From the NCBI GenBank assembly GCA_020861185.1, contig JAJBSV010000003.1, positions 1 to 64,000 on the forward strand: DNA of 64,000 nt. The letters run 5' to 3'. The translations under genes were made by a program, and so were the position numbers. Origin of the DNA: Ruminococcus sp. Its GTDB lineage: Bacteria > Bacillota > Clostridia > Oscillospirales > Ruminococcaceae. The notes below the pieces were generated by a model, which had not been told where the DNA came from, did no database searches, and saw only the letters and a program-made list of their open reading frames with translations. Position 1 is the stretch's first letter. Each line of letters starts with the position of its first letter. Below, piece by piece: positions 1 through 32,880 of the stretch.

Positions 1-274
1 ACAGACTGTTACTCCACCCATTCAACCGGTATGTATGTACGTTGCGAATTGGCGTAAAATTCTCTTATATTGATCTTTGTTTCCAATCCGATCGTATGTC
101 TATTCTAAGGCAAAAAAATGCCGCCGTTAGTTTTCAAGCGAAAAACGTAAACGGCGACAAATTTGTTCTCTATTATTTCAAATTTGCACAGGGCATGATA
201 CAAGGCATTCTGTTCATACTGAGGACATTTGGAAAGAAGCGACAGGCGGAAGACTGATATACCTTTCCAAAACA
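1..274. other. Left edge, no confident gene
   Basis: All three forward frames are open at the window edge, so the tail of a gene may lie here, but none is recognisable. One frame ends at a TAA at 55-57 after 18 codons. Another runs to a TGA at 255-257 and could start at TTG 42 (71 aa), with no clear ribosome-binding site and no family resemblance. I do not call a protein here. The stretch is followed by a strong hairpin at 281-304 and an oriT-like structured block. Confidence 0.3.
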
Positions 275-280
275 AACAAC

Positions 281-304
281 AAGGGAGCCGACACAGGCTC
301 CCTT
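281..304 (-). terminator. Strong hairpin, likely terminator
   Basis: A perfect 9-bp stem (AAGGGAGCC / GGCTCCCTT) closes a 6-nt loop. On the minus strand it is followed by the T-rich run GTTGTTTGTTTT, so it fits an intrinsic terminator for leftward transcription better than for rightward. Confidence 0.6.
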
Positions 305-307
305 CTG

Positions 308-456
308 TAATCCATATTGAGTTTTCGTCCGACGGCTATTTTGCAAAGGTATAACACACTAGACTTTCCATCTGGGAAAGTCGTGTGCCAACAGGGGGTA
401 GCCCTTTTGGATTGCCCCCGGAATGGTGTGGTTGTAAACTGATTTCATAGAAATAA
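308..456 (-). other. Structured non-coding block, candidate oriT
   Basis: No gene covers this stretch. It has two adjacent inverted repeats. One is a long hairpin at about 354-390, with GACTTTCC/GGAAAGTC arms flanked by CACAC/GTGTG. The other is GGGGG...CCCCC at about 394-419. On the minus strand the long hairpin runs directly into GTGTGTTATACC. An inverted repeat a few bases from a conserved nick-like sequence is how the transfer origins of many Firmicutes conjugative elements are built. No relaxase gene is visible, so the function is inferred. It could also be a small RNA leader or an element end. Confidence 0.3.
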
Positions 457-485
457 AGCGTTCACAGTTACGACTGTGAACGCTT
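457..485. terminator. Bidirectional terminator after ABC operon
   Basis: The arms AGCGTTCACAGT and ACTGTGAACGCT form a long stem, with A-rich sequence on one side and TTTTCTT on the other. It lies about 15 nt beyond the minus-strand ABC permease stop and is its natural terminator. Confidence 0.8.
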
Positions 486-500
486 TTCTTATATCTGCAA

Positions 501-2540
501 CTATATGATGAGTGCCACCGCAAAGCTAGGCAGTGCCAAGATTCCTACTGATGCGACATATGCCCCGACCGTAGTCTTTGACCGACTGCTTATCAGAAGA
601 ACGATCATCGAAACTGCCATCAGGAACAAGAGGCGCAATAAGTAAATCAAAACTAACAGTCCTCCTATGGATATTTGCAGCGGGAAGTCGGCAAGAATCT
701 CTAAATTCTGAACTGGTGCTGAAAGCGGCGTGGTGTATTCCGCGAGGAAATACTTAAGCTCCTGCATATAGACGCAAGCCCAGACCGCCGTTGCCATCAA
801 AAGGCAGGTCAATATTTTCATACCAAGAAGATATCCTCTTCCACGCTTGAGGCTCTTAAGGAGCGGAACCACTCCCGATTTCTTCTCATAAACCATAATT
901 CCTGCACATCCAAGGCAGACAAACAGTATCGCAACTGCCATGTTCAGCCTCCGAGTGTCCTTGGCTTCGGTTCCGTAAACTGAATGAAACGGCTTTGAAT
1001 CGAGGATATAGGGAGTATAGCCGCCCTCTTCTGCACGGGCTTTAGCCTCGCTTATCTCAAGCTCAAGACGGTCAAGTGCAATCGTGAGATCGCCATAATA
1101 GCTGGAGCTTTCGGCATTGGCTCTGGCTATTTCAAAATATTCTTCCGTTTTCTCATTTATCTCGCCCTCGATGTCGGAAAGATACAGCTGATACCACTGG
1201 TCGCTCTCATAGATAGCGACGTCATAGTCGAGGGCTCCTCCAACAAGAAATACGGCAATAATTATGACCGCTCCGAAAGAGTATATGAGCACTTTATAGA
1301 GCTCCCATCCGAATGCTCCCAGGTGAGCTCTCAGCTTGTCGAATATATAGTTGAGCTTCAGCCAGATAACCGAGAGAACGTCCCTCTGCCCGTCGGGATA
1401 GCGTGTTAAGGACTTAAAGCATAAAGCCGCAAACAGCACCAATACCACCGGCAGGACGGCGAACATCATCGCCCTGATTCCAATCGGGTAGCCGAAGATA
1501 TTGACGTTTAGATAATTGCTGTAGAGCGCAGTGAGATTGACATATGAGAATATATTCAGGTATTTAAAAACGTTTGCAAAGCTCTGAACCGGAAGAAGCG
1601 TATTGAGAAGGTATTCGACCGCAAGCGTAACTCCAATGGCTCCTAAAGAGAACTGAACATTCGCCACGGTGGACATTACTGCCCAGATGAACAGCCCTAA
1701 AAGCACTCCGCAAAGCACCTTCATGAGTAGATACTGACCCAGCCACTGCGCAACCGTCAGGTTGAGTGTACACCGTGAAAAGTACTCGAGTGACTGCAAC
1801 GACCTCCCGAGACTCCCGAAGCTGTTTGTGAAGCCTAAGCTCAGGCAAAGCGGCAGCAGATAGAAAAGCAAGGTCAAGGCGACGCTCGCTATCCCAAGAG
1901 TGGCGATTCTTTGCATGCAGAGCCTAGTTCTACCGTACTTCGTTGTGCGGATGACCGACCACAGCCCGACTTTTCTCTCCTCCAGAAAGCCGATGACTAT
2001 AACTACTAAAGCCGCAAGGAAAAAGTAATCGGCAAGGGTGAACCCAAGCCATTTTGTTATACCGTAGCTGTCGCCGAATTCGAGGATTACGCCGTCAAGC
2101 GTGCTGAAATCATCAGCCGTCTTTGTAATATTTCTGCCCGAAAAGGTGTTGGCAGAGGAAAAGATGCTCGTCTTGCCGAGAAGCTCCGCCTGAGCTTGGA
2201 CGTTTTCCAAGTAATCATAATAGCCGAGCTGGTATTCCACCTCATCAGTTAGGAAATAGAGCCTTGTCTGTAGGATAGATCTGAGCTGGCTGTCAACCGT
2301 GCTGTACAACAGGCTCATCTTTTCTTCGTCAAGATATTCGTCTATTTCTTCAAGACTTTTGCCCTCGCAGTTTCCCAGGATATTCTGAATATGCTCGTTG
2401 GCTTCTATGTTGTCGGAGATTATGCCCGAGCGGATGCTTCCCAAAAAATCATACATAAAAACGCAGAGCATGACAAAAAGCATGGCGAGAATAATTGCAA
2501 TCCGGCTTTTACTGAGAAGAGCTCTTTTTATCTCGCCCAT
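501..2540 (-). CDS. ABC-2-like transporter permease
   Basis: A 679-residue polytopic membrane protein encoded with an ATPase and a lipoprotein. The protein starts MGEIKRALLS with a membrane helix at about residues 13-34. A long extracytoplasmic, helix-rich region follows (about 35-165), then a group of about six helices. A second copy of this plan begins near residue 420: a helix, an exposed Glu/Ala-rich segment and a terminal helix cluster. This fits two ABC-2-type halves joined in one chain. I chose the ATG at 2538-2540, one base beyond the ATPase stop codon; the longer open frame overlaps the ATPase gene and is unlikely. The substrate is unknown. Export of a peptide, lipid or drug is typical for such sets but not shown here. 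Confidence 0.8.
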   Translation of the reverse strand: MGEIKRALLSKSRIAIILAMLFVMLCVFMYDFLGSIRSGIISDNIEANEHIQNILGNCEGKSLEEIDEYLDEEKMSLLYSTVDSQLRSILQTRLYFLTDEVEYQLGYYDYLENVQAQAELLGKTSIFSSANTFSGRNITKTADDFSTLDGVILEFGDSYGITKWLGFTLADYFFLAALVVIVIGFLEERKVGLWSVIRTTKYGRTRLCMQRIATLGIASVALTLLFYLLPLCLSLGFTNSFGSLGRSLQSLEYFSRCTLNLTVAQWLGQYLLMKVLCGVLLGLFIWAVMSTVANVQFSLGAIGVTLAVEYLLNTLLPVQSFANVFKYLNIFSYVNLTALYSNYLNVNIFGYPIGIRAMMFAVLPVVLVLFAALCFKSLTRYPDGQRDVLSVIWLKLNYIFDKLRAHLGAFGWELYKVLIYSFGAVIIIAVFLVGGALDYDVAIYESDQWYQLYLSDIEGEINEKTEEYFEIARANAESSSYYGDLTIALDRLELEISEAKARAEEGGYTPYILDSKPFHSVYGTEAKDTRRLNMAVAILFVCLGCAGIMVYEKKSGVVPLLKSLKRGRGYLLGMKILTCLLMATAVWACVYMQELKYFLAEYTTPLSAPVQNLEILADFPLQISIGGLLVLIYLLRLLFLMAVSMIVLLISSRSKTTVGAYVASVGILALPSFAVALII

Positions 2541-2541
2541 A

Positions 2542-3282
2542 TCATTCACCACCCAGGTAGTAAAGATAGACGTCCTCAATGTTCGGATAGTGGTTGACGG
2601 GGACATAATCATCGGGCAGAGATTCAATAAGCCCTGCCGGACTGCCACACATGAGGAGCTTGCCATTTTTCATAAGCAGGACTTTATCTGCGACGGACTC
2701 TATATCTGAGACTATATGGGTGCAAAGAAGAACTATCCTGTCCTTTGCAAGCTCGCTTATAAAGCTTCGGATTCTTATACGCTCTTTCGGGTCTAAACCT
2801 GCTGTCGGCTCATCCAAAATAAGTATCTTCGGGTCGCCTAAGATTGCCTGAGCAAGCAGAACCCTCTGTCTCATCCCTCCTGAAAATCCGCCTACAGCCT
2901 TGTTTCTGACATGTGATAAATTCGTAATCTCAAGAACTCTTTCGGTCTCCTCTTTAAGAGCCTTGCCTTTCAAGCCCTTGAGCCTGCCGATGTATGAAAC
3001 GAAGCTAAGGGCGGTCATCTTATCATAAACGCCCTGCTGCTGGGGCATATATCCTACAAGACTTCGGAATTCTGCGCCCATTTCAAGTATTTCTTTTCCG
3101 TCAAGAGTTATCGAGCCGCTGTCACGCTTAACATTATCTGTAATCAGGCTCATCATCGTGGATTTTCCCGCACCGTTCGCTCCTAAGATTCCGGTAATCC
3201 CAATATCAAATGTGACCGAAAAGTCGTCAAGAGCCGTGACGTCGCCATAGCGTTTTGTGAGATTATCGAGTCTCAGCTCCAC
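2542..3282 (-). CDS. ABC transporter ATP-binding protein
   Basis: A 246-residue ATPase that powers the permease downstream. It has Walker A GANGAGKS near residue 35, the Q-loop segment GYMPQQQG, the signature FSGGMRQRV, Walker B ILILDEPTAGLD and the switch histidine in LLCTHIVSD. The length and the CcmA/NatA-like pattern fit the ABC-2 exporter class. It lies 2 nt after the lipoprotein gene and 1 nt before the permease start, so the three are co-transcribed and probably translationally coupled. Confidence 0.92.
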   Translation of the reverse strand: MELRLDNLTKRYGDVTALDDFSVTFDIGITGILGANGAGKSTMMSLITDNVKRDSGSITLDGKEILEMGAEFRSLVGYMPQQQGVYDKMTALSFVSYIGRLKGLKGKALKEETERVLEITNLSHVRNKAVGGFSGGMRQRVLLAQAILGDPKILILDEPTAGLDPKERIRIRSFISELAKDRIVLLCTHIVSDIESVADKVLLMKNGKLLMCGSPAGLIESLPDDYVPVNHYPNIEDVYLYYLGGE

Positions 3283-3284
3283 AT

Positions 3285-4463
3285 TTATCCCTCCCCGTTC
3301 ACTTCATCCGCATTGCTCCAGAGGGTTATCTGCTCGCTTCCGTCAAGGGACAAGGCAATTATGCTCTCATATGGATACTCGTTTGACCACACAAGAGCAT
3401 CGATATAGATGTAGTCATCATCAGTGCCCATAATCGTAGGAATCACGAAGCGTCCTGCCTCCAAGTCCTCATATATGACAGTAGTCGCCATTAGAGTGTT
3501 TCCGTCTAAATCTATAATACTGATATCAAAACCGTCAATCGTGTAGAGCCCAAGAAGAATATTCTCCCCGATGAAGCCGTAGGTGTAGTAATATGTGCTT
3601 TCATATACAGTTTCTATCGTATCTTCCCCGAAAGTGAGTTTATAAATTGTGTAGTCCTCAGTAGTGCAACCGCCGAAGATGATAGCATCATCAGTCACAC
3701 AGAATCTGCGGGATTGGAATGGCTTCTCACCCTTGTAGAGTATCTCGCTTTCGCCGGTTTCAACGGAATACCTGACCATCTCCATAGTGTTTACATCATC
3801 TGATGAATCGTCATATGCCATTATGTAGATATAATCGCCATAAGGCTCGATTGCGACATCTTTGTATTCATCTGATGAGTATATAAGAGTTCCCTCCTCG
3901 TCGGAATCTATAGGATAGGCAATAACTCTTGAATACTCCTTGGTAGTACCGGCACTGACCACGGTTACTCCTGCGGCATAGTAAAACCAACCTCTGTGGA
4001 ATGCTGATGATGGATTGGAGATATAGCTACCGGAGAAGTTATTGGTGAAAAGAGTGGTATTTACAGAACGCACAGTTGTCTTGTTGGTGCCGTCGGTGTC
4101 ACTGCACACAATTGTCTTGTCGCTTTCATAAAAGCGATAGAGCTTTCCGTTATAGAGGCAGAGCCCGTCGCCGCTAGGGTAGTAAGCGTTACAGGAAGCA
4201 TCCGAGTGGTCGCACTCCGGCTTTCCGCAAAGAGGCGCACATATCCCACTTTGCTTGTCATAAAACATCAGCATTTGCTCATCGGAAAGCTCGAAGTATA
4301 CCACCGCCTCATTGCTGCAAGCGTTCTCGCGGTACTGGAAGAAGTTATAGTCGCAGTCTTCAGTAATGGTCACCTCGATGGCTTCCTTGCTTCCACAGGA
4401 GCAAAGAGTGGTGAGCAGAAGAACTGCTATGGTGAGCTTGGTCAGTATTTTGCGGATGGTCAT
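3285..4463 (-). CDS. Lipoprotein with CGKPECDH motif, ABC-associated
   Basis: A 392-residue exported protein. The N-terminus is a signal sequence ending in the lipobox LCSC, with Cys23 the likely lipidated residue. Shortly after come PLCGKPECDH and DASCNAYYP, a Cys/His signature I know from Clostridia lipoproteins encoded beside ABC transporters. The rest repeats short Tyr/Asp-rich beta strands such as GDYIYIMAYDD, suggesting a beta-propeller-like fold. It is the first gene of a three-gene operon with ATPase and permease. A sensor or accessory role for the exporter is inferred; the ligand is unknown. The start follows a GGGGGAC ribosome-binding site. Confidence 0.75.
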   Translation of the reverse strand: MTIRKILTKLTIAVLLLTTLCSCGSKEAIEVTITEDCDYNFFQYRENACSNEAVVYFELSDEQMLMFYDKQSGICAPLCGKPECDHSDASCNAYYPSGDGLCLYNGKLYRFYESDKTIVCSDTDGTNKTTVRSVNTTLFTNNFSGSYISNPSSAFHRGWFYYAAGVTVVSAGTTKEYSRVIAYPIDSDEEGTLIYSSDEYKDVAIEPYGDYIYIMAYDDSSDDVNTMEMVRYSVETGESEILYKGEKPFQSRRFCVTDDAIIFGGCTTEDYTIYKLTFGEDTIETVYESTYYYTYGFIGENILLGLYTIDGFDISIIDLDGNTLMATTVIYEDLEAGRFVIPTIMGTDDDYIYIDALVWSNEYPYESIIALSLDGSEQITLWSNADEVNGEG

Positions 4464-4521
4464 TTTTTAGTCCCCCATTCTTTCTTAACCTATAATCGTT
4501 TTCTACTTTTTATATAAAATC

Positions 4522-4551
4522 GACATTGGGCTATATTTCAAACCCAATGTC
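4522..4551 (-). terminator. Terminator after small secreted protein gene
   Basis: GACATTGGG and CCCAATGTC form a 9-bp stem with a 12-nt loop. On the minus strand it follows the 131-residue protein gene and is trailed by GATTTTATAT. It separates that gene from the ABC operon. Confidence 0.65.
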
Positions 4552-4567
4552 AAATCACAATAAATAA

Positions 4568-4963
4568 TTAGCCTCCGTAGAGATTCGCTACAGCTGTACC
4601 ATTTACCATAAATCTGCCACTGGATGCTACAACATAAGCATCGAATGGTATCTCTTCATTACTGATTACACTGCCAGCAGCTGCATGTGCATAACCAGTC
4701 ACGGTATCGTTAGGGCTAACTACTGCTGTGACATTTACCTGTGTGTTATAACTGTTACCTGACGTGCTATTGTACTCTGACAAGGTAACGTATACGGAAT
4801 TACCACTATGATACATAGAGCAACTGTACAAATACCTACTGCCATTGCTATCATCAATATACTCAGCAGTTGTAGACGATCTAGCCATCGGCGAAGCACC
4901 TACAGTCACAGCCAAGCAAACAACAGTAGCTAACGCAACTATAGTTGTAAGTATTTTTTTCAT
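4568..4963 (-). CDS. Small secreted protein, unknown function
   Basis: A 131-residue protein beginning MKKILTTIVALATVV with a standard signal peptide, probably cleaved after VGA near residue 23. The mature part has no cysteine pair and no lipobox. It is rich in Ser, Thr, Asn and Tyr and alternates polar and hydrophobic residues as in a small beta sandwich (YLYSCSMYHS, SVYVTLSEY, NTQVNVTAVV). I recognise no family. It is read away from a second secreted small protein, and both promoters flank one palindrome at 5078-5096. That points to joint regulation, perhaps by the XRE-TPR protein nearby. A secreted effector or adhesin-like role is possible but unproven. Confidence 0.7.
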   Translation of the reverse strand: MKKILTTIVALATVVCLAVTVGASPMARSSTTAEYIDDSNGSRYLYSCSMYHSGNSVYVTLSEYNSTSGNSYNTQVNVTAVVSPNDTVTGYAHAAAGSVISNEEIPFDAYVVASSGRFMVNGTAVANLYGG

Positions 4964-5040
4964 GATAATCTTTTCTTTCTAAAAGTATTTGCTTCCTTAG
5001 TCGACATAGAAGCATAGGAACTGAATTCAAGTTCAAAATA

Positions 5041-5069
5041 ATGATAGCAAAAGTTTTGAATGGTGTCAA
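5041..5069 (-). promoter_or_regulatory. Promoter of the 131-residue secreted protein
   Basis: On the minus strand TTGACA (5064-5069) and TATCAT (5041-5046) are separated by exactly 17 nt, an almost ideal sigma-A promoter. The leader to the start codon is about 70 nt. Confidence 0.75.
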
Positions 5070-5077
5070 CTGTGCTA

Positions 5078-5096
5078 ATGTGACCAACGGTCATAT
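5078..5096. promoter_or_regulatory. Palindrome between divergent promoters
   Basis: ATGTGACC-AAC-GGTCATAT is an inverted repeat with 8-bp arms and one mismatch. It lies 9 nt from the -35 of the leftward promoter and touches the -35 of the rightward one, an ideal place for a regulator controlling both small secreted genes. The core TGACCAA also occurs on the minus strand at 6324-6330, upstream of the XRE-TPR gene. Confidence 0.5.
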
Positions 5097-5124
5097 TGAC
5101 AATCAGAAATCGGTGTGCAATAAT
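5096..5124 (+). promoter_or_regulatory. Promoter of the 70-residue secreted peptide
   Basis: TTGACA (5096-5101) and AATAAT (5119-5124) are 17 nt apart. The transcript would start about 50 nt before the ATG at 5179. Confidence 0.55.
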
Positions 5125-5178
5125 TGAACAGTGTGATCATGCTGATTACACTAAATTTACATTTGGAGGTATCCATTT

Positions 5179-5391
5179 ATGAAAAATATTTTAGCCAAAT
5201 TACTCGCCACTCTTTCAGCAGTCTTCATCTTATCATCCGTATTAGTCGGCAGTCCAATAGAATTGCCTTCTATTCCCACACATCCACCAGTGACTGAAGT
5301 GACTGATCCATACGAACCAGAAGGGGACTTTGATGACATATCCACACCTCAATATGACGAACCAATACTTGACGACGACTTCCATCAGTAA
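5179..5391 (+). CDS. Small secreted acidic peptide precursor
   Basis: A 70-residue product with ribosome-binding site TGGAGG 10 nt before the ATG. Residues 1-24 (MKNILAKLLATLSAVFILSS) form a signal sequence. The remaining roughly 45 residues are Pro-rich and strongly acidic, ending DEPILDDDFHQ. There is no cysteine and no family I recognise. Its 3' end overlaps by 7 nt the 3' end of the XRE-TPR regulator on the other strand. Small secreted precursors beside TPR regulators are typical of RRNPP peptide signalling, so a signal-peptide role is a reasonable hypothesis. At 70 residues it is longer than most such precursors. Confidence 0.6.
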   Translation: MKNILAKLLATLSAVFILSSVLVGSPIELPSIPTHPPVTEVTDPYEPEGDFDDISTPQYDEPILDDDFHQ

Positions 5392-6293
5392 ATGAAGTTA
5401 TTTTCAAGAAATTCCTTATATAGTCTTGTAAATTTAGGAATCATATCAAAAACTCTACTTGTATTGTAAGCATCACTCGCCATCTGTTTGGCTTCCTCGT
5501 AGTTCTTTTTGCCACCTATCTTCAGCAAGCAAACAGCAACGTTATACATACAGCTGGAAGCTGTTTCATTAATAACATTCATATATTTTGCCCACTCAAG
5601 ACCCTCTCGTGCAGTCTTTAGAGCTTCTTTGTATTCACCGCAGGCAACTAATATTTCTGCTAAATTATTGCATGTCAATAACAAACTTCGAGCTGCTGCT
5701 GTTTTGTCCAACATTACATCTTCCAAACACTTTTTTAGATGACTATGAATATGTATTGCAGTCTCGAAATCGCCTATGAAATAGTAGCAATTAGCTATCA
5801 CATTTATAACTAAATGCTCCACATTGGTAATGTATGACGGCAATTTCATTGGACTAAAATCATCAATGGTATACCGGATTATCTTTTCGAAGTTATCGAG
5901 CTTTTGTTCATGACTCATACCGACAGTTTTTTCAGTAAGCAGTGTTTCGCACATGTCGAAACGTTGTTTTGTTGATACAGAGAAGTTTTCGTAATCGTCA
6001 ACTATGGACGAGAGCAAATCGTATGCTTTGTCAGTGTCACCGCCGATTCTCAGCGCATTTATCTGACGTATGGTCTGAATATAACGATAGTCATTTGCGG
6101 TTATCAATTCACCGTCAAAGACGTTGTGCATGCCGAGCCTTTCCAAGATAAGCGCAAGGGTTTCGGGATTGAATCGCTTTAAACCTGTTTCAACCTTATA
6201 GAGCATTGAAACTGTGCAAATTCCGTGGCAAATGTCCTCACGGCTTGCACCAAGTTCTTCTCTGCGACTTTTGATTATTTCTCCTATAGTCAT
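5385..6293 (-). CDS. XRE-family regulator with TPR-like C-terminus
   Basis: A 302-residue cytoplasmic regulator. Residues 1-60 are a helix-turn-helix of the XRE type (MTIGEIIKSRREELGASRED, then CTVSMLYKVETG). The rest is all helical with TPR-like segments, for example ETAIHIHSHLKKCLEDV and GEYKEALKTAREGLEWA. This plan is that of RRNPP/Rgg-like proteins, which bind short peptides in the TPR groove. The gene has its own strong promoter and a palindrome across the likely transcription start. The neighbouring small secreted proteins are the obvious candidates for signal and target. Peptide binding is inferred from architecture. Confidence 0.8.
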   Translation of the reverse strand: MTIGEIIKSRREELGASREDICHGICTVSMLYKVETGLKRFNPETLALILERLGMHNVFDGELITANDYRYIQTIRQINALRIGGDTDKAYDLLSSIVDDYENFSVSTKQRFDMCETLLTEKTVGMSHEQKLDNFEKIIRYTIDDFSPMKLPSYITNVEHLVINVIANCYYFIGDFETAIHIHSHLKKCLEDVMLDKTAAARSLLLTCNNLAEILVACGEYKEALKTAREGLEWAKYMNVINETASSCMYNVAVCLLKIGGKKNYEEAKQMASDAYNTSRVFDMIPKFTRLYKEFLENNFIY

Positions 6294-6331
6294 TATTTCT
6301 CCTTCTTTCTGCCAAACTTTCTTTGGTCAAT

Positions 6332-6355
6332 GATGTATAGATACTATCATACATC
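6332..6355. promoter_or_regulatory. Palindrome over the XRE-TPR transcription start
   Basis: GATGTAT and ATACATC (7-bp perfect arms) enclose a second small palindrome GATA-C-TATC. The element lies just downstream of the -10 box of the regulator gene, covering the expected start site. A second, shorter inverted repeat CCAAA/TTTGG is at 6312-6325. Autoregulation is the likely reason. Confidence 0.45.
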
Positions 6356-6362
6356 TATATCT

Positions 6363-6392
6363 ATAATACCCTCTTAGAAGTGACTTTGTCAA
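6363..6392 (-). promoter_or_regulatory. Promoter of the XRE-TPR regulator
   Basis: On the minus strand TTGACA (6387-6392) and TATTAT (6363-6368) are 18 nt apart. The 5' leader is about 60 nt. Confidence 0.7.
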
Positions 6393-6470
6393 GAAGCAAA
6401 ATAGGATTTGAAATAAATGCTATTTCATAGGGACTCTTTTCATCAAAAGACTTACGATATAAGAGCATAA

Positions 6471-6512
6471 AAGAACCGATTGCCTTCCAGTTAGAAAACA
6501 ATCGGTTCTTTC
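6471..6512. terminator. Terminator-like hairpin
   Basis: AAAGAACCGATTG and CAATCGGTTCTTT form a 13-bp stem with a 16-nt loop. It is T-rich on the plus side and lies between the regulator promoter and the SDR gene stop, where it could end minus-strand SDR transcription. The rest of 6393-6669 shows no gene I can support. Confidence 0.5.
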
Positions 6513-6669
6513 TTTGTTTTGTCTTTTGCACAATATCAGTTGAACTTATCCCCAACTGTATGCTGTGCACACACCTGTCCTGTCAGCTAATAGTTGGTAG
6601 GTTTTGTTAGTTACTTACCGGTATTCAGCTTTTTCGGGGGGATTTTTTGAGAGAATCAATTTTTAAGAA

Positions 6670-7637: not shown

Positions 7638-9665
7638 ATGAACTTAAAATTCAAAAGAATACTTTCAATGATAATAGCGCTCAGCATGGTCTTCATGCTT
7701 TCTTCATGTGCGGAATCAGTAAGCGACAGCGACAGTGATTCCGACACTTCTGTAACCGACTCAGCGGTCGGCGCGGCTTTCCTCGTTTCCTGCACCCTTT
7801 CGGGAACCGTTACCGAAGTCTCCGGCTATGAGATAACCCTCTCAGTAGCCCTTTCATCCGGCAACTCCGACATGATGGGCATGGGCGGAGACATGCAGAT
7901 GGGCGACATGAACAGCGTGGGCGATATGGGCAAGATGAGCGGCGAAGGTGGAGACGTCCCCTCCGACATGCCCGACGATGTACCCTCTGACGACGGTCAT
8001 GGCGGCGGAAACGGCGACGGCGGCGATGTTCCCGACAAGCCCGACGCAGAAGGCGAGGGCAGAGACAATGGTGAGCCAGAACCCATGTCCTCAACAGGCG
8101 ACTATGAAATAGAACTTCTTGCCGATACATCTGAAGAGCTCACAGAAAGCTCTGACAACACTTTCACAGTAACTCTCATAGTTCCCGATGAATCGGTAAT
8201 CACCGACACCGATGGCAACAGCCTGACTCTTTCCGACATAGAAGCAGGGGACACCCTGACGTTCACCGTTGACGACGGCGGCGAAATCGCTTCAATAGTG
8301 GTCGGCGGCGAATCCTCCGATATGGGCAACCTCTCTAACGGTGGCGGCATGGGCGGCTCATCCTCCGGCGTCGACAGCTACGACGCGATCGTAACCTACA
8401 CAGAGGACGGCATCTATTCGGATATGGATTACACCTCGACAGGTTCCGATGAAAACGCTGTTTTGGTCACTTCCGGCGACGTCACCATCTCCGATAGCAC
8501 TATCTCGAGAATCTCTTCTGACTCCACAGGTGGAGATAATTCGAGCTTCTATGGTGTCGGAGCAAGTGCACTTGTCACGAGCGGCACCTTGAGAATTACC
8601 AACACGACCATCACCTCCGACTCGGCAGGCGGTGCGGGAGTATTTGCCTATGGCGACGGCGTTGCATACGTCAGCGACACCACCATCACCACCGAGCAGG
8701 ACACCTCGGGTGGCATTCATGTTGCCGGCGGCGGAACGCTCTACGCATGGAATCTGACAGTCAGCACCTCCGGCGAATCCTCTGCGGCTATAAGAAGCGA
8801 CCGTGGCAGTGGAACCATGGTAGTTGACGGCGGCACCTATGTCTCAAACGGCACCGGCTCTCCCGCAGTCTACAGCACCGCAGACATCACAGTTGCGAAC
8901 GCTACCCTGACAGCCAATTCCTCCGAAGCCATCTGCATCGAAGGGCTCAACACGATTCGCCTTTTCGACTGCGACCTTTCCGGCAGTATGCTTGACAGCT
9001 CCCAGAACGACTGCACATGGAACGTCATCGTCTATCAGAGCATGTCAGGCGACTCGGAGGTCGGCAACGGCACATTCATGATGATTGGCGGCTCTCTGAC
9101 AGCCAATAACGGTGGCATGTTCTATACCACCAACACCGAGAGCACTTTCCTTATCAGCGGCGTTGACATCACCTACGCCGAAGACTCGGAATTCTTCCTC
9201 AAGTGCACTGGCAACTCCAATCAGCGTGGTTGGGGATCGACCGGCTCGAACGGCGCCGACTGCAGCTTCACAGCTCGCAAGCAGGCAATGGAGGGCGCAG
9301 TTATCTACGACAGCATCAGCAACCTTGACTTCTATATGCTCGACGGCAGTGTCTTGACCGGCTACTTCGTCGACGACGAATCGAATGCAGGCAACGGCGG
9401 CGACGGCGAGTGCAACGTCTACATTGACAGCACTTCTACCTGGATTGTCACGAACTACAGCACCGTTACAAACCTCTACTGCGAAGGCACCATCACAGAT
9501 GCTGACGGCAACACCGTCACCATCTTGAGCTCTGACGGCACCGTCTACGTCACCGGTGACAGCGAATACACCATCACCGTTGAGTCCTACTCGACCGCCG
9601 TCGACACCACCGGCGCCAGCGAGCTCGTCAGCTTCGAAGACTACTCTGTAGAAAATCCCTTCTGA
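7638..9665 (+). CDS. Large beta-helix lipoprotein
   Basis: A 675-residue surface lipoprotein. The signal sequence ends in the lipobox LSSC (Cys24), followed by a Ser/Asp run. Residues about 75-150 are unusually rich in Met, Gly and Asp (DMMGMGGDMQMGDM, then MPDDVPSDD). Residues about 170-225 form a small beta domain (DTDGNSLTLSDIEAGD). From about 245 to 620 short repeats with patterns such as SGDVTISDSTIS and GTLRITNTTIT mark a right-handed parallel beta helix, the fold of pectate lyases and many adhesins. I see no pectate-lyase catalytic signature. Codon use is visibly richer in G+C than in neighbouring genes. Ribosome-binding site AAAGGA. Binding to carbohydrate or metal is a guess. Confidence 0.75.
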   Translation: MNLKFKRILSMIIALSMVFMLSSCAESVSDSDSDSDTSVTDSAVGAAFLVSCTLSGTVTEVSGYEITLSVALSSGNSDMMGMGGDMQMGDMNSVGDMGKMSGEGGDVPSDMPDDVPSDDGHGGGNGDGGDVPDKPDAEGEGRDNGEPEPMSSTGDYEIELLADTSEELTESSDNTFTVTLIVPDESVITDTDGNSLTLSDIEAGDTLTFTVDDGGEIASIVVGGESSDMGNLSNGGGMGGSSSGVDSYDAIVTYTEDGIYSDMDYTSTGSDENAVLVTSGDVTISDSTISRISSDSTGGDNSSFYGVGASALVTSGTLRITNTTITSDSAGGAGVFAYGDGVAYVSDTTITTEQDTSGGIHVAGGGTLYAWNLTVSTSGESSAAIRSDRGSGTMVVDGGTYVSNGTGSPAVYSTADITVANATLTANSSEAICIEGLNTIRLFDCDLSGSMLDSSQNDCTWNVIVYQSMSGDSEVGNGTFMMIGGSLTANNGGMFYTTNTESTFLISGVDITYAEDSEFFLKCTGNSNQRGWGSTGSNGADCSFTARKQAMEGAVIYDSISNLDFYMLDGSVLTGYFVDDESNAGNGGDGECNVYIDSTSTWIVTNYSTVTNLYCEGTITDADGNTVTILSSDGTVYVTGDSEYTITVESYSTAVDTTGASELVSFEDYSVENPF

Positions 9666-28127: not shown

Positions 28128-28137
28128 CGTATCAATA

Positions 28138-28235
28138 AAACAGGGGAGCTTGCAAGGGCAGGCTGAGAGGGAGCGCGTTTCGCTCCGACCCATAACCTGA
28201 TTCGGATAATACCGACGTAGGGCGTATAGCTTTTG
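28138..28235 (+). promoter_or_regulatory. TPP (THI element) riboswitch
   Basis: The stretch holds the hallmark THI-box segments GGGCAGGCTGAGAGGG and ACCTGATTCGGATAAT-ACCG-ACGTAGGG in the right order. A variable hairpin (GGAGCGCGTTTCGCTCC) lies between them as the P3 arm. It binds thiamine pyrophosphate and should repress the operon through the terminator at 28271-28294. Confidence 0.95.
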
Positions 28236-28270
28236 AATGTTCATAGCATTCAGAACACTGTGCTTTGATT

Positions 28271-32633: not shown

Positions 32634-32880
32634 AGAAATGGCGTTGACGAAGAGCGGCAAGGTAATTTTCTCCAAAAGAGAGACAGCGGTTGGTGCGAGC
32701 TGTCGGGAAAGCCTCAGCCGGTAGCTTCCGAGCCGACGGGAAGAAAGGGAAGACTCGAGTAGAACCCGTCCGTAAGCGAACGTTATCCGCATTAAGAGGC
32801 AGGAAAGTTTCTTTTCTGCAATTTGAGTGGTACCGCGGGTTATCTCGTCTCAAGAATTTCTTGGGGCGATTTTTTATTTC
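32634..32880 (+). promoter_or_regulatory. T-box riboswitch controlling valS
   Basis: The leader shows the Stem I piece GCGGTTGGTGCGAGC, the AGTAGAAC segment that follows Stem I, and the T-box TGGTACCGCG at 32828-32837. A terminator follows at 32845-32877 (CGTCTCAAG / CTTGGGGCG, then TTTTTT). Uncharged tRNA would pair with the T-box and prevent termination. A GTA at 32721-32723 could be the valine specifier, but I cannot prove it from sequence alone. Confidence 0.93.

Follow-up and report, generated by a model that had tools for sequence, protein, structure and literature searches.

In the PlcR/PapR system of the Bacillus cereus group, the precursor PapR is 48 aa long, its gene lies on the same strand as plcR, and the PlcR box reads TATGNAN4TNCATA. 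The receptor combines an HTH with a TPR domain, a small secreted precursor is encoded next to it (papR, about 70 bp downstream of plcR), and the regulon consists of secreted proteins (PMC6753895). The PapR-type heptapeptide is ADLPFEF (PMC6568020). Another system of this kind is TprA/PhrA of Streptococcus pneumoniae, in which peptide and regulator are encoded on opposite strands and are adjoined by ABC transporters and secreted-peptide cargo (PMC5436883). A published structural tree, with Sec as the ancestral export route, groups PlcR and TprA in a single clade within the five-TPR clan (PMC12700828). In group III of the Rgg/SHP systems of Streptococcus, the signal gene is convergent with the receptor gene and overlaps its 3' end (PMC13361665, PMC3679016), and the SHPs are short, hydrophobic peptides exported by PptAB (PMC13361665). 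Candidate clusters in which a TPR receptor adjoins a secreted ORF of 10-100 aa have also been collected by RRNPP_detector, which allows propeptides of that length at -60 to +400 bp (PMC10075063).

The DNA analyzed here, a stretch of 64 kb referred to as the window, is contig C6 of its own genome (1.97 Mb), which belongs to a relative of common gut anaerobes. A first-pass annotation had placed a transcription regulator and two small secreted proteins at 4568-6293, and all three ORFs were found there. The gene of the XRE-TPR regulator (302 aa) occupies 5385-6293 on the minus strand, and that of a 70-aa secreted acidic propeptide, the candidate pheromone precursor, occupies 5179-5391 on the plus strand, so that the two meet tail-to-tail with an overlap of 7 nt (5385-5391). 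The precursor ORF starts with ATG, preceded by a ribosome-binding site (TTTGGAGG), and begins with a hydrophobic signal sequence. Divergent from it, on the minus strand, lies the gene of a 131-aa secreted protein (4568-4963). The strong promoters expected for the three genes were located at suitable places, one per gene and each matching the sigma-A-type consensus at 11 of 12 positions, in a region whose total of 8 promoter-like sites does not exceed that of shuffled sequences (mean 7.8). They are TTGACA-17-AATAAT for the propeptide (5096-5124, plus strand), TTGACA-17-TATCAT for the 131-aa gene (5041-5069, minus strand), and TTGACA-18-TATTAT for the regulator (6363-6392, minus strand). Between the two divergent promoters, and common to both, is a putative palindromic operator, TGTGACCaacGGTCATA (5079-5095; TGTGACC-AAC-GGTCATA), whose centre is at about -44 of the propeptide promoter and about -52 of the cargo promoter; the regulator promoter is without such an operator. 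Further along the minus strand follow a gene for a secreted protein of 392 aa, lipoprotein-like by reading and without a Pfam match (3285-4463), an ABC transporter ATPase (2542-3282; ABC_tran, E 5.2e-29), and a large membrane protein, probably an ABC permease, without a Pfam match at E 0.01 and with an uncertain start (501-2567; ATG at 2666). Co-expression of the 131-aa gene and the ABC operon is uncertain, since a terminator-like hairpin (4520-4553, minus strand; 2 such sites found vs 1.2 expected) stands between them.

The regulator matches HTH_3 in its N-terminal and TPR families in its C-terminal part, every match lying under the Pfam curated cut-offs. When a profile of 18 regulators was compared with all PDB sequences, PlcR ranked at the top (E 8e-15, positions 1-297), a ranking that holds against PDB chains only, with no TprA chain among the matches listed. 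PrgX and ComR ranked after it and were matched by the N-terminal part, and PDB chains named only 'Transcriptional regulator', which we take to be Rgg, matched approximately residues 4-106. Some matches were to proteins with TPRs only, for example kinesin light chain. Because the match to PlcR extends over the full length, we regard the regulator as a probable PlcR-like RRNPPA receptor with a candidate propeptide. The RRNPP shape ascribed to it earlier, namely an XRE HTH followed by TPRs in a protein of about 300 aa, is thus borne out. Other marks of RRNPPA systems are also present: the adjacent small ORF carries a secretion signal, and two SBP_bac_5 (Opp-type) proteins, candidates for oligopeptide import, exceed the cut-off in the same genome. 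Homologs of the regulator were found in 19 of 60 genomes including its own, 18 of these being among the 31 genomes of the genus. The family was further detected in 11 of 197 genomes of the order (E <= 1e-12) and in 6 of 293 genomes of the class (E <= 1e-30), its own genome counted in both cases, and its distribution is patchy.

Compared with the described systems, the locus shares features with several and matches none throughout. Its receptor is closest to PlcR over the whole length, as ranked against PDB chains; however, its precursor gene is convergent and overlapping rather than downstream on the same strand, precursors of the family measure 52-79 aa, and the operators and C-termini differ from the PlcR box and from ADLPFEF. 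The cargo of TprA/PhrA is a lantibiotic cluster, unlike the cargo found here, and the accessible text on that system reports no tail-to-tail overlap of 3' ends (PMC5436883). With group III Rgg/SHP the locus has a convergent, overlapping signal gene in common, but its receptor matches PlcR from end to end rather than being Rgg-type, and the precursors carry Sec-type signals and acidic tails instead of being short and hydrophobic. Two arguments for novelty made in the first-pass annotation therefore do not hold: the tail-to-tail orientation is by itself not new, since it occurs in Rgg/SHP group III (PMC13361665, PMC3679016), and the precursor length falls within what the published detector already accepts (PMC10075063). 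The module may overlap with one of the 21 novel clusters of RRNPP_detector, as compared through the main text of that report, in which no words beginning with Oscillospir, Ruminococc, Lachnospir, Faecalibacterium, or Flavonifractor occur (PMC10075063). A literature search, mostly without subscription papers, retrieved no description of this module, and the library searched held no paper pairing RRNPP with Oscillospir.

Neither the 70-aa nor the 131-aa protein belongs to a family above cut-off in Pfam or NCBIfam. The precursors of the regulator family begin with basic residues, continue with a hydrophobic stretch, and finish in an acidic tail. Many of them have a plausible signal-peptidase site (by reading), and in the alignment many carry a C-x3-C pair and an aromatic last residue. 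The window precursor is free of Cys and terminates in LDDDFHQ. No obvious mature peptide emerged from the precursor alignment, in which the C-termini vary and many contain Cys.

The earlier proposal depended on the small ORFs being conserved together with the regulator, and for the precursor this is the case at many loci. At 25 of 44 homologous regulator places, hand checks included, a convergent secreted ORF of 52-79 aa is intact and its 3' end overlaps that of the regulator by 4-37 nt. It is damaged at two places (G001_C39 and G012_C51) and absent at the other 17, among them four of the five orthologs (65-85% identity), one of which, G019_C13, has just 182 nt of contig behind the regulator. 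When one strict filter was applied throughout, the first set of regulators had the convergent small secreted ORF in 21 of 42 cases and further relatives had it in 5 of 17, as against none of 210 other ORF ends. The control had comprised 227 ORF ends with 5 positives; a profile check identified 17 of them as relatives, including all 5 positives. The remaining 210 were delimited from stop to stop, are at least about 200 codons long, and include some that are not genes. In 32 genomes, the 17 best matches of a peptide profile (E <= 2e-10), 13 of which are its own training rows, each adjoin such a regulator.

The layout extends beyond the genus. Among 20 order-level loci, six have a clear convergent secreted ORF, overlapping the regulator in L063 (G213), L065 (G048), L067 (G215), and L068 (G177) and ending 2 nt and 6 nt past its stop in L066 (G229) and L076 (G177), respectively; in L071 the ORF is possible, and in 13 there is none. 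Two of four new class-level loci, L085 and L088, from a genome of another order-level group, also have one. In L085 (G371), a long inverted repeat around TATGGTGTAACTTTTAGTTACACCATA is located upstream of the convergent ORF. A different situation was noted in L050 (G008:C18), where a broken regulator stands beside an intact 68-aa precursor, the signal being kept and the receptor apparently lost. At L004, L005, and L007 (G025, G027, and G001), orthologous regulators have no precursor, retain the operator, and precede an ABC-exporter-like gene. In residues 161-230, the G025 receptor shares 97% identity with the window regulator, and it may therefore respond to a window-type signal.

The central palindrome that two promoters had been said to share is present, although by itself it is not significant: palindromes in that intergenic region do not stand out from dinucleotide shuffles (p ~0.15, 60 shuffles). 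Its core, GACYNNNRGTC, was found in all six orthologous loci at an identical place relative to the cargo promoter, while the 64-kb window holds one occurrence vs 3.9 expected, and the window operator has one site in the whole of its own genome (up to 3 mismatches). Many other loci possess a palindrome between precursor and cargo, with a sequence that varies by clade, for example CGTTGCGTcccACGCAACG, ATTGGACTaaaAGTCCAAT, and ATTGTGAGTattACTCACAAT. In a test of 35 intergenic regions against shuffles, p <= 0.05 was reached in 13 of 22 peptide-bearing regions and in 1 of 13 peptide-less ones; outside this test were nine of the 44 places, two with proteins under 250 aa (G004_C1 and G008_C18) and G004_C25, G007_C12, G048_C49, G008_C17, G012_C51, G001_C39, and G048_C21. 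A search of 15 loci that allowed up to 4 mismatches detected no operator copy a short distance upstream of the regulator, upstream DNA being short in some of them and a single 4-mismatch match lying at -913 in G027_C2b. The two paralogs of the regulator have an operator of their own, represented in the same genome by three sites, two beside regulators and one in trans. Together with a -35 box it occurs in 4 of 31 genomes at seven sites, of which six are beside a regulator of the family and the seventh precedes a sigma-factor gene in the window's own genome; a reversed control pattern gave 0. The trans copy, at 296453-296477, belongs to locus L089 (757-3953, G000:C5), where the genes that follow encode a sigma factor (Sigma70_r2 and r4_2), a DUF4367 protein, and an ABC exporter.

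The distance between operator and promoter is more constant than the operator sequence. Operators were recognized by eye in 24 loci, and a script sought promoters within a limited distance of them. Relative to the predicted cargo start, 18 of these loci have the operator centre at -52 to -54 and the other six, all of one operator type, have it at -46 to -48. Of the 17 peptide-bearing loci, 11 have the centre at -52 to -54 on the peptide side as well, and three have it at -74, with a second copy 20 bp nearer; the window itself has it at -44, not -54, and in two loci the script found no good promoter. In the seven peptide-less loci, the cargo-side promoter is kept in all, whereas a good peptide-side promoter is present in none. 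Since two outward promoters are near-locked in phase to one operator across unrelated sequences, this arrangement suggests that the regulator is an activator. The spacing could also have been inherited with no selection acting on it, although at such divergence this is less likely.

The first-pass annotation had treated the 131-aa protein as a part of the module. It is present and divergent as described; however, among 60 genomes it has a match in only two others (99% identity in G024 and a weak 32% in G002), and it is one of many interchangeable cargo genes. It was also considered as a part of the signal and rejected, as the cargo varies between loci. The cargo of other loci includes proteins with Peptidase_C39_2 (E 1.2e-8) or Peptidase_M23 (E 2.3e-12) matches, permeases of FtsX type (E 4e-8), and small CxxC proteins, and in this it resembles the exoproteins that PlcR controls. 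The genes immediately following several of the peptide-less regulators are ABC exporters, a sigma-factor-like gene, or lipoprotein-like genes.

That receptor, peptide, and operator function together is indicated most strongly by mosaic alleles. Among 19 locus pairs, a clear valley of identity was seen in two, and the other 17 are uniformly alike, uniformly diverged, or ambiguous. In the pair G030_C27 and G024_C20, nucleotide identity is 87-100% upstream and through the HTH, falls to 38-77% from the TPR domain across the junction of the two 3' ends, and returns to 87-100% over the signal sequence, the operator, and the start of the cargo; the operators are identical, and the cargo body differs as well (42-52%). 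At four-fold sites, 3 of 38 differ in residues 1-100 vs 24 of 39 beyond (Fisher 7e-7), which shows replacement and not just selection on the protein. The second valley lies between the window and G024 (contig C32), which have about 6.4 kb in common (210-6648), comprising the module and its cargo operon. Identity is 97-100% at 4401-5000 and 6301-6600, 83-98% in the outer cargo operon, and 40-87% in the regulator, peptide, and operator, with a low-identity stretch at about 5034-6250. In G024, the 131-aa gene is thus 97-100% identical, yet the regulator, peptide, and operator are replaced. Past 6648 nothing matches within the 19 kb compared, and below 210 only 209 nt of the window contig remain. 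Just beyond the common stretch, at 7638-9665 on the plus strand, the window encodes a 675-aa secreted protein with long Asp/Ser/Gly/Met-rich stretches.

A further pair, G013_C23 and G025_C37b, differs in the opposite parts: the HTHs are more distant (0.62) and the operators differ, while the TPR domains and peptide ends are closer (0.41 and 0.55, respectively). These mosaics suggest two separable parts, the HTH with the operator and the TPR domain with the peptide C-terminus. Specific co-evolution of the latter two was also sought in distance correlations and rejected: rho was 0.57 for TPR domain vs peptide C-terminus (20 pairs), similar to HTH vs peptide (0.49) and TPR vs signal sequence (0.65), which indicates co-inheritance only. 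Because these values are similar across part pairs, the mosaics were taken as the basis instead. The coupled divergence of TPR domain and peptide lends indirect support to the predicted binding of the peptide to that domain.

Taken together, the trio is very likely a PlcR-like (RRNPPA) cell-cell signalling cassette working through an activator, and the peptide-signalling module proposed at the outset is well supported as a unit that is real, conserved, and recombining; it is backed by the conservation, the full-length match to PlcR, the operators common to loci, and the mosaic alleles, all of which can be read from the DNA. We infer that the precursor is secreted and matured and that its peptide is imported and bound, and likewise the sign with which the regulator acts. 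The 70-aa precursor would be exported via Sec and trimmed outside the cell to a short C-terminal peptide, which an Opp-type permease would re-import for binding by the TPR domain of the regulator. At the palindrome that lies between the promoters of precursor and cargo, a regulator dimer would then in all likelihood activate both genes, which would create positive feedback on the signal. The outcome would be a coordinated release of secreted cargo, perhaps together with the ABC transporter.

The same receptor and peptide could also work with the opposite sign, the regulator repressing both divergent promoters until the peptide relieves it, as in TprA/PhrA. Promoters so near consensus (11/12) could fit repression too, and in TprA, a member of the same clade as PlcR (PMC12700828), a mutant raises expression of the lantibiotic cluster, as does added PhrA2 peptide (PMC6753895, PMC5436883). 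Against this, neither promoter is covered by the operator, which sits immediately upstream of the two -35 boxes, its near-constant phase in unrelated operator families is what an activator requires, and tandem operators 20 bp apart place one copy in phase with each promoter; repression is therefore unlikely, though it deserves serious attention. A smaller chance is given to the 70-aa protein being an output, such as a secreted effector, an antimicrobial, or an immunity peptide, while the regulator senses something else. Such a role would suit a predicted secreted, acidic protein that lacks a recognizable mature signal and whose gene has its operator in common with other secreted cargo; however, between G030 and G024 its C-terminus diverges along with the TPR domain while the signal sequence and operator stay constant, and its place beside the regulator is constant whereas the cargo varies by locus.

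Two readings that deny the small ORF any role in signalling fare worse. The overlap of 3' ends at all 25 intact places could be a mechanism in itself, with convergent transcripts that interfere or pair and an incidental ORF product, but the basic start, hydrophobic stretch, RBS, and acidic tail persist across large divergence, and orthologous regulators without the ORF retain the operator and the cargo promoter, which makes this reading very improbable. That small ORFs merely happen to lie beside an ordinary XRE-TPR regulator is hardly credible: although the window palindrome is not significant alone and the precursor ORF is missing at 17 of 44 regulators and at most order-level loci, an absence that also weighs against the signalling cassette, the strict-filter counts (21/42 and 5/17 vs 0/210) contradict chance, and further families as well as another order-level group show the layout too.

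More tentatively, and with somewhat less than even confidence, we propose that the tail-to-tail layout makes the signalling cassette an exchangeable communication code of two independently recombining parts, spreading among Oscillospirales. The ligand-binding end of the receptor and the signal-encoding end of the precursor meet at one DNA junction, so one short exchange could swap both while the HTH, operator, and signal sequence stay, as between G030 and G024. The HTH and operator could likewise be swapped while the TPR domain and peptide stay closer (G013_C23 and G025_C37b), and the whole receptor-peptide-operator unit could be replaced beside an unchanged cargo gene, as between the window and G024. 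Such a two-part code would specify who is heard and which genes answer. The relatives of this genome include many uncultured anaerobes. From the module, one would predict that secreted peptidases and uncharacterized small proteins are released under the control of cell density. Its many matched sets of receptor, signal, and operator differ in specificity, and some of them occur within one genome; they form a natural dataset from which joint changes of receptors and peptide codes can be learned. Peptide-less receptors could listen to the signals of others.

Elsewhere in the window, two RNA elements on the plus strand, a T-box leader at 32635-32855 (109 bits) and a TPP riboswitch at 28132-28240 (58.2 bits), are its sole Rfam matches at gathering score.
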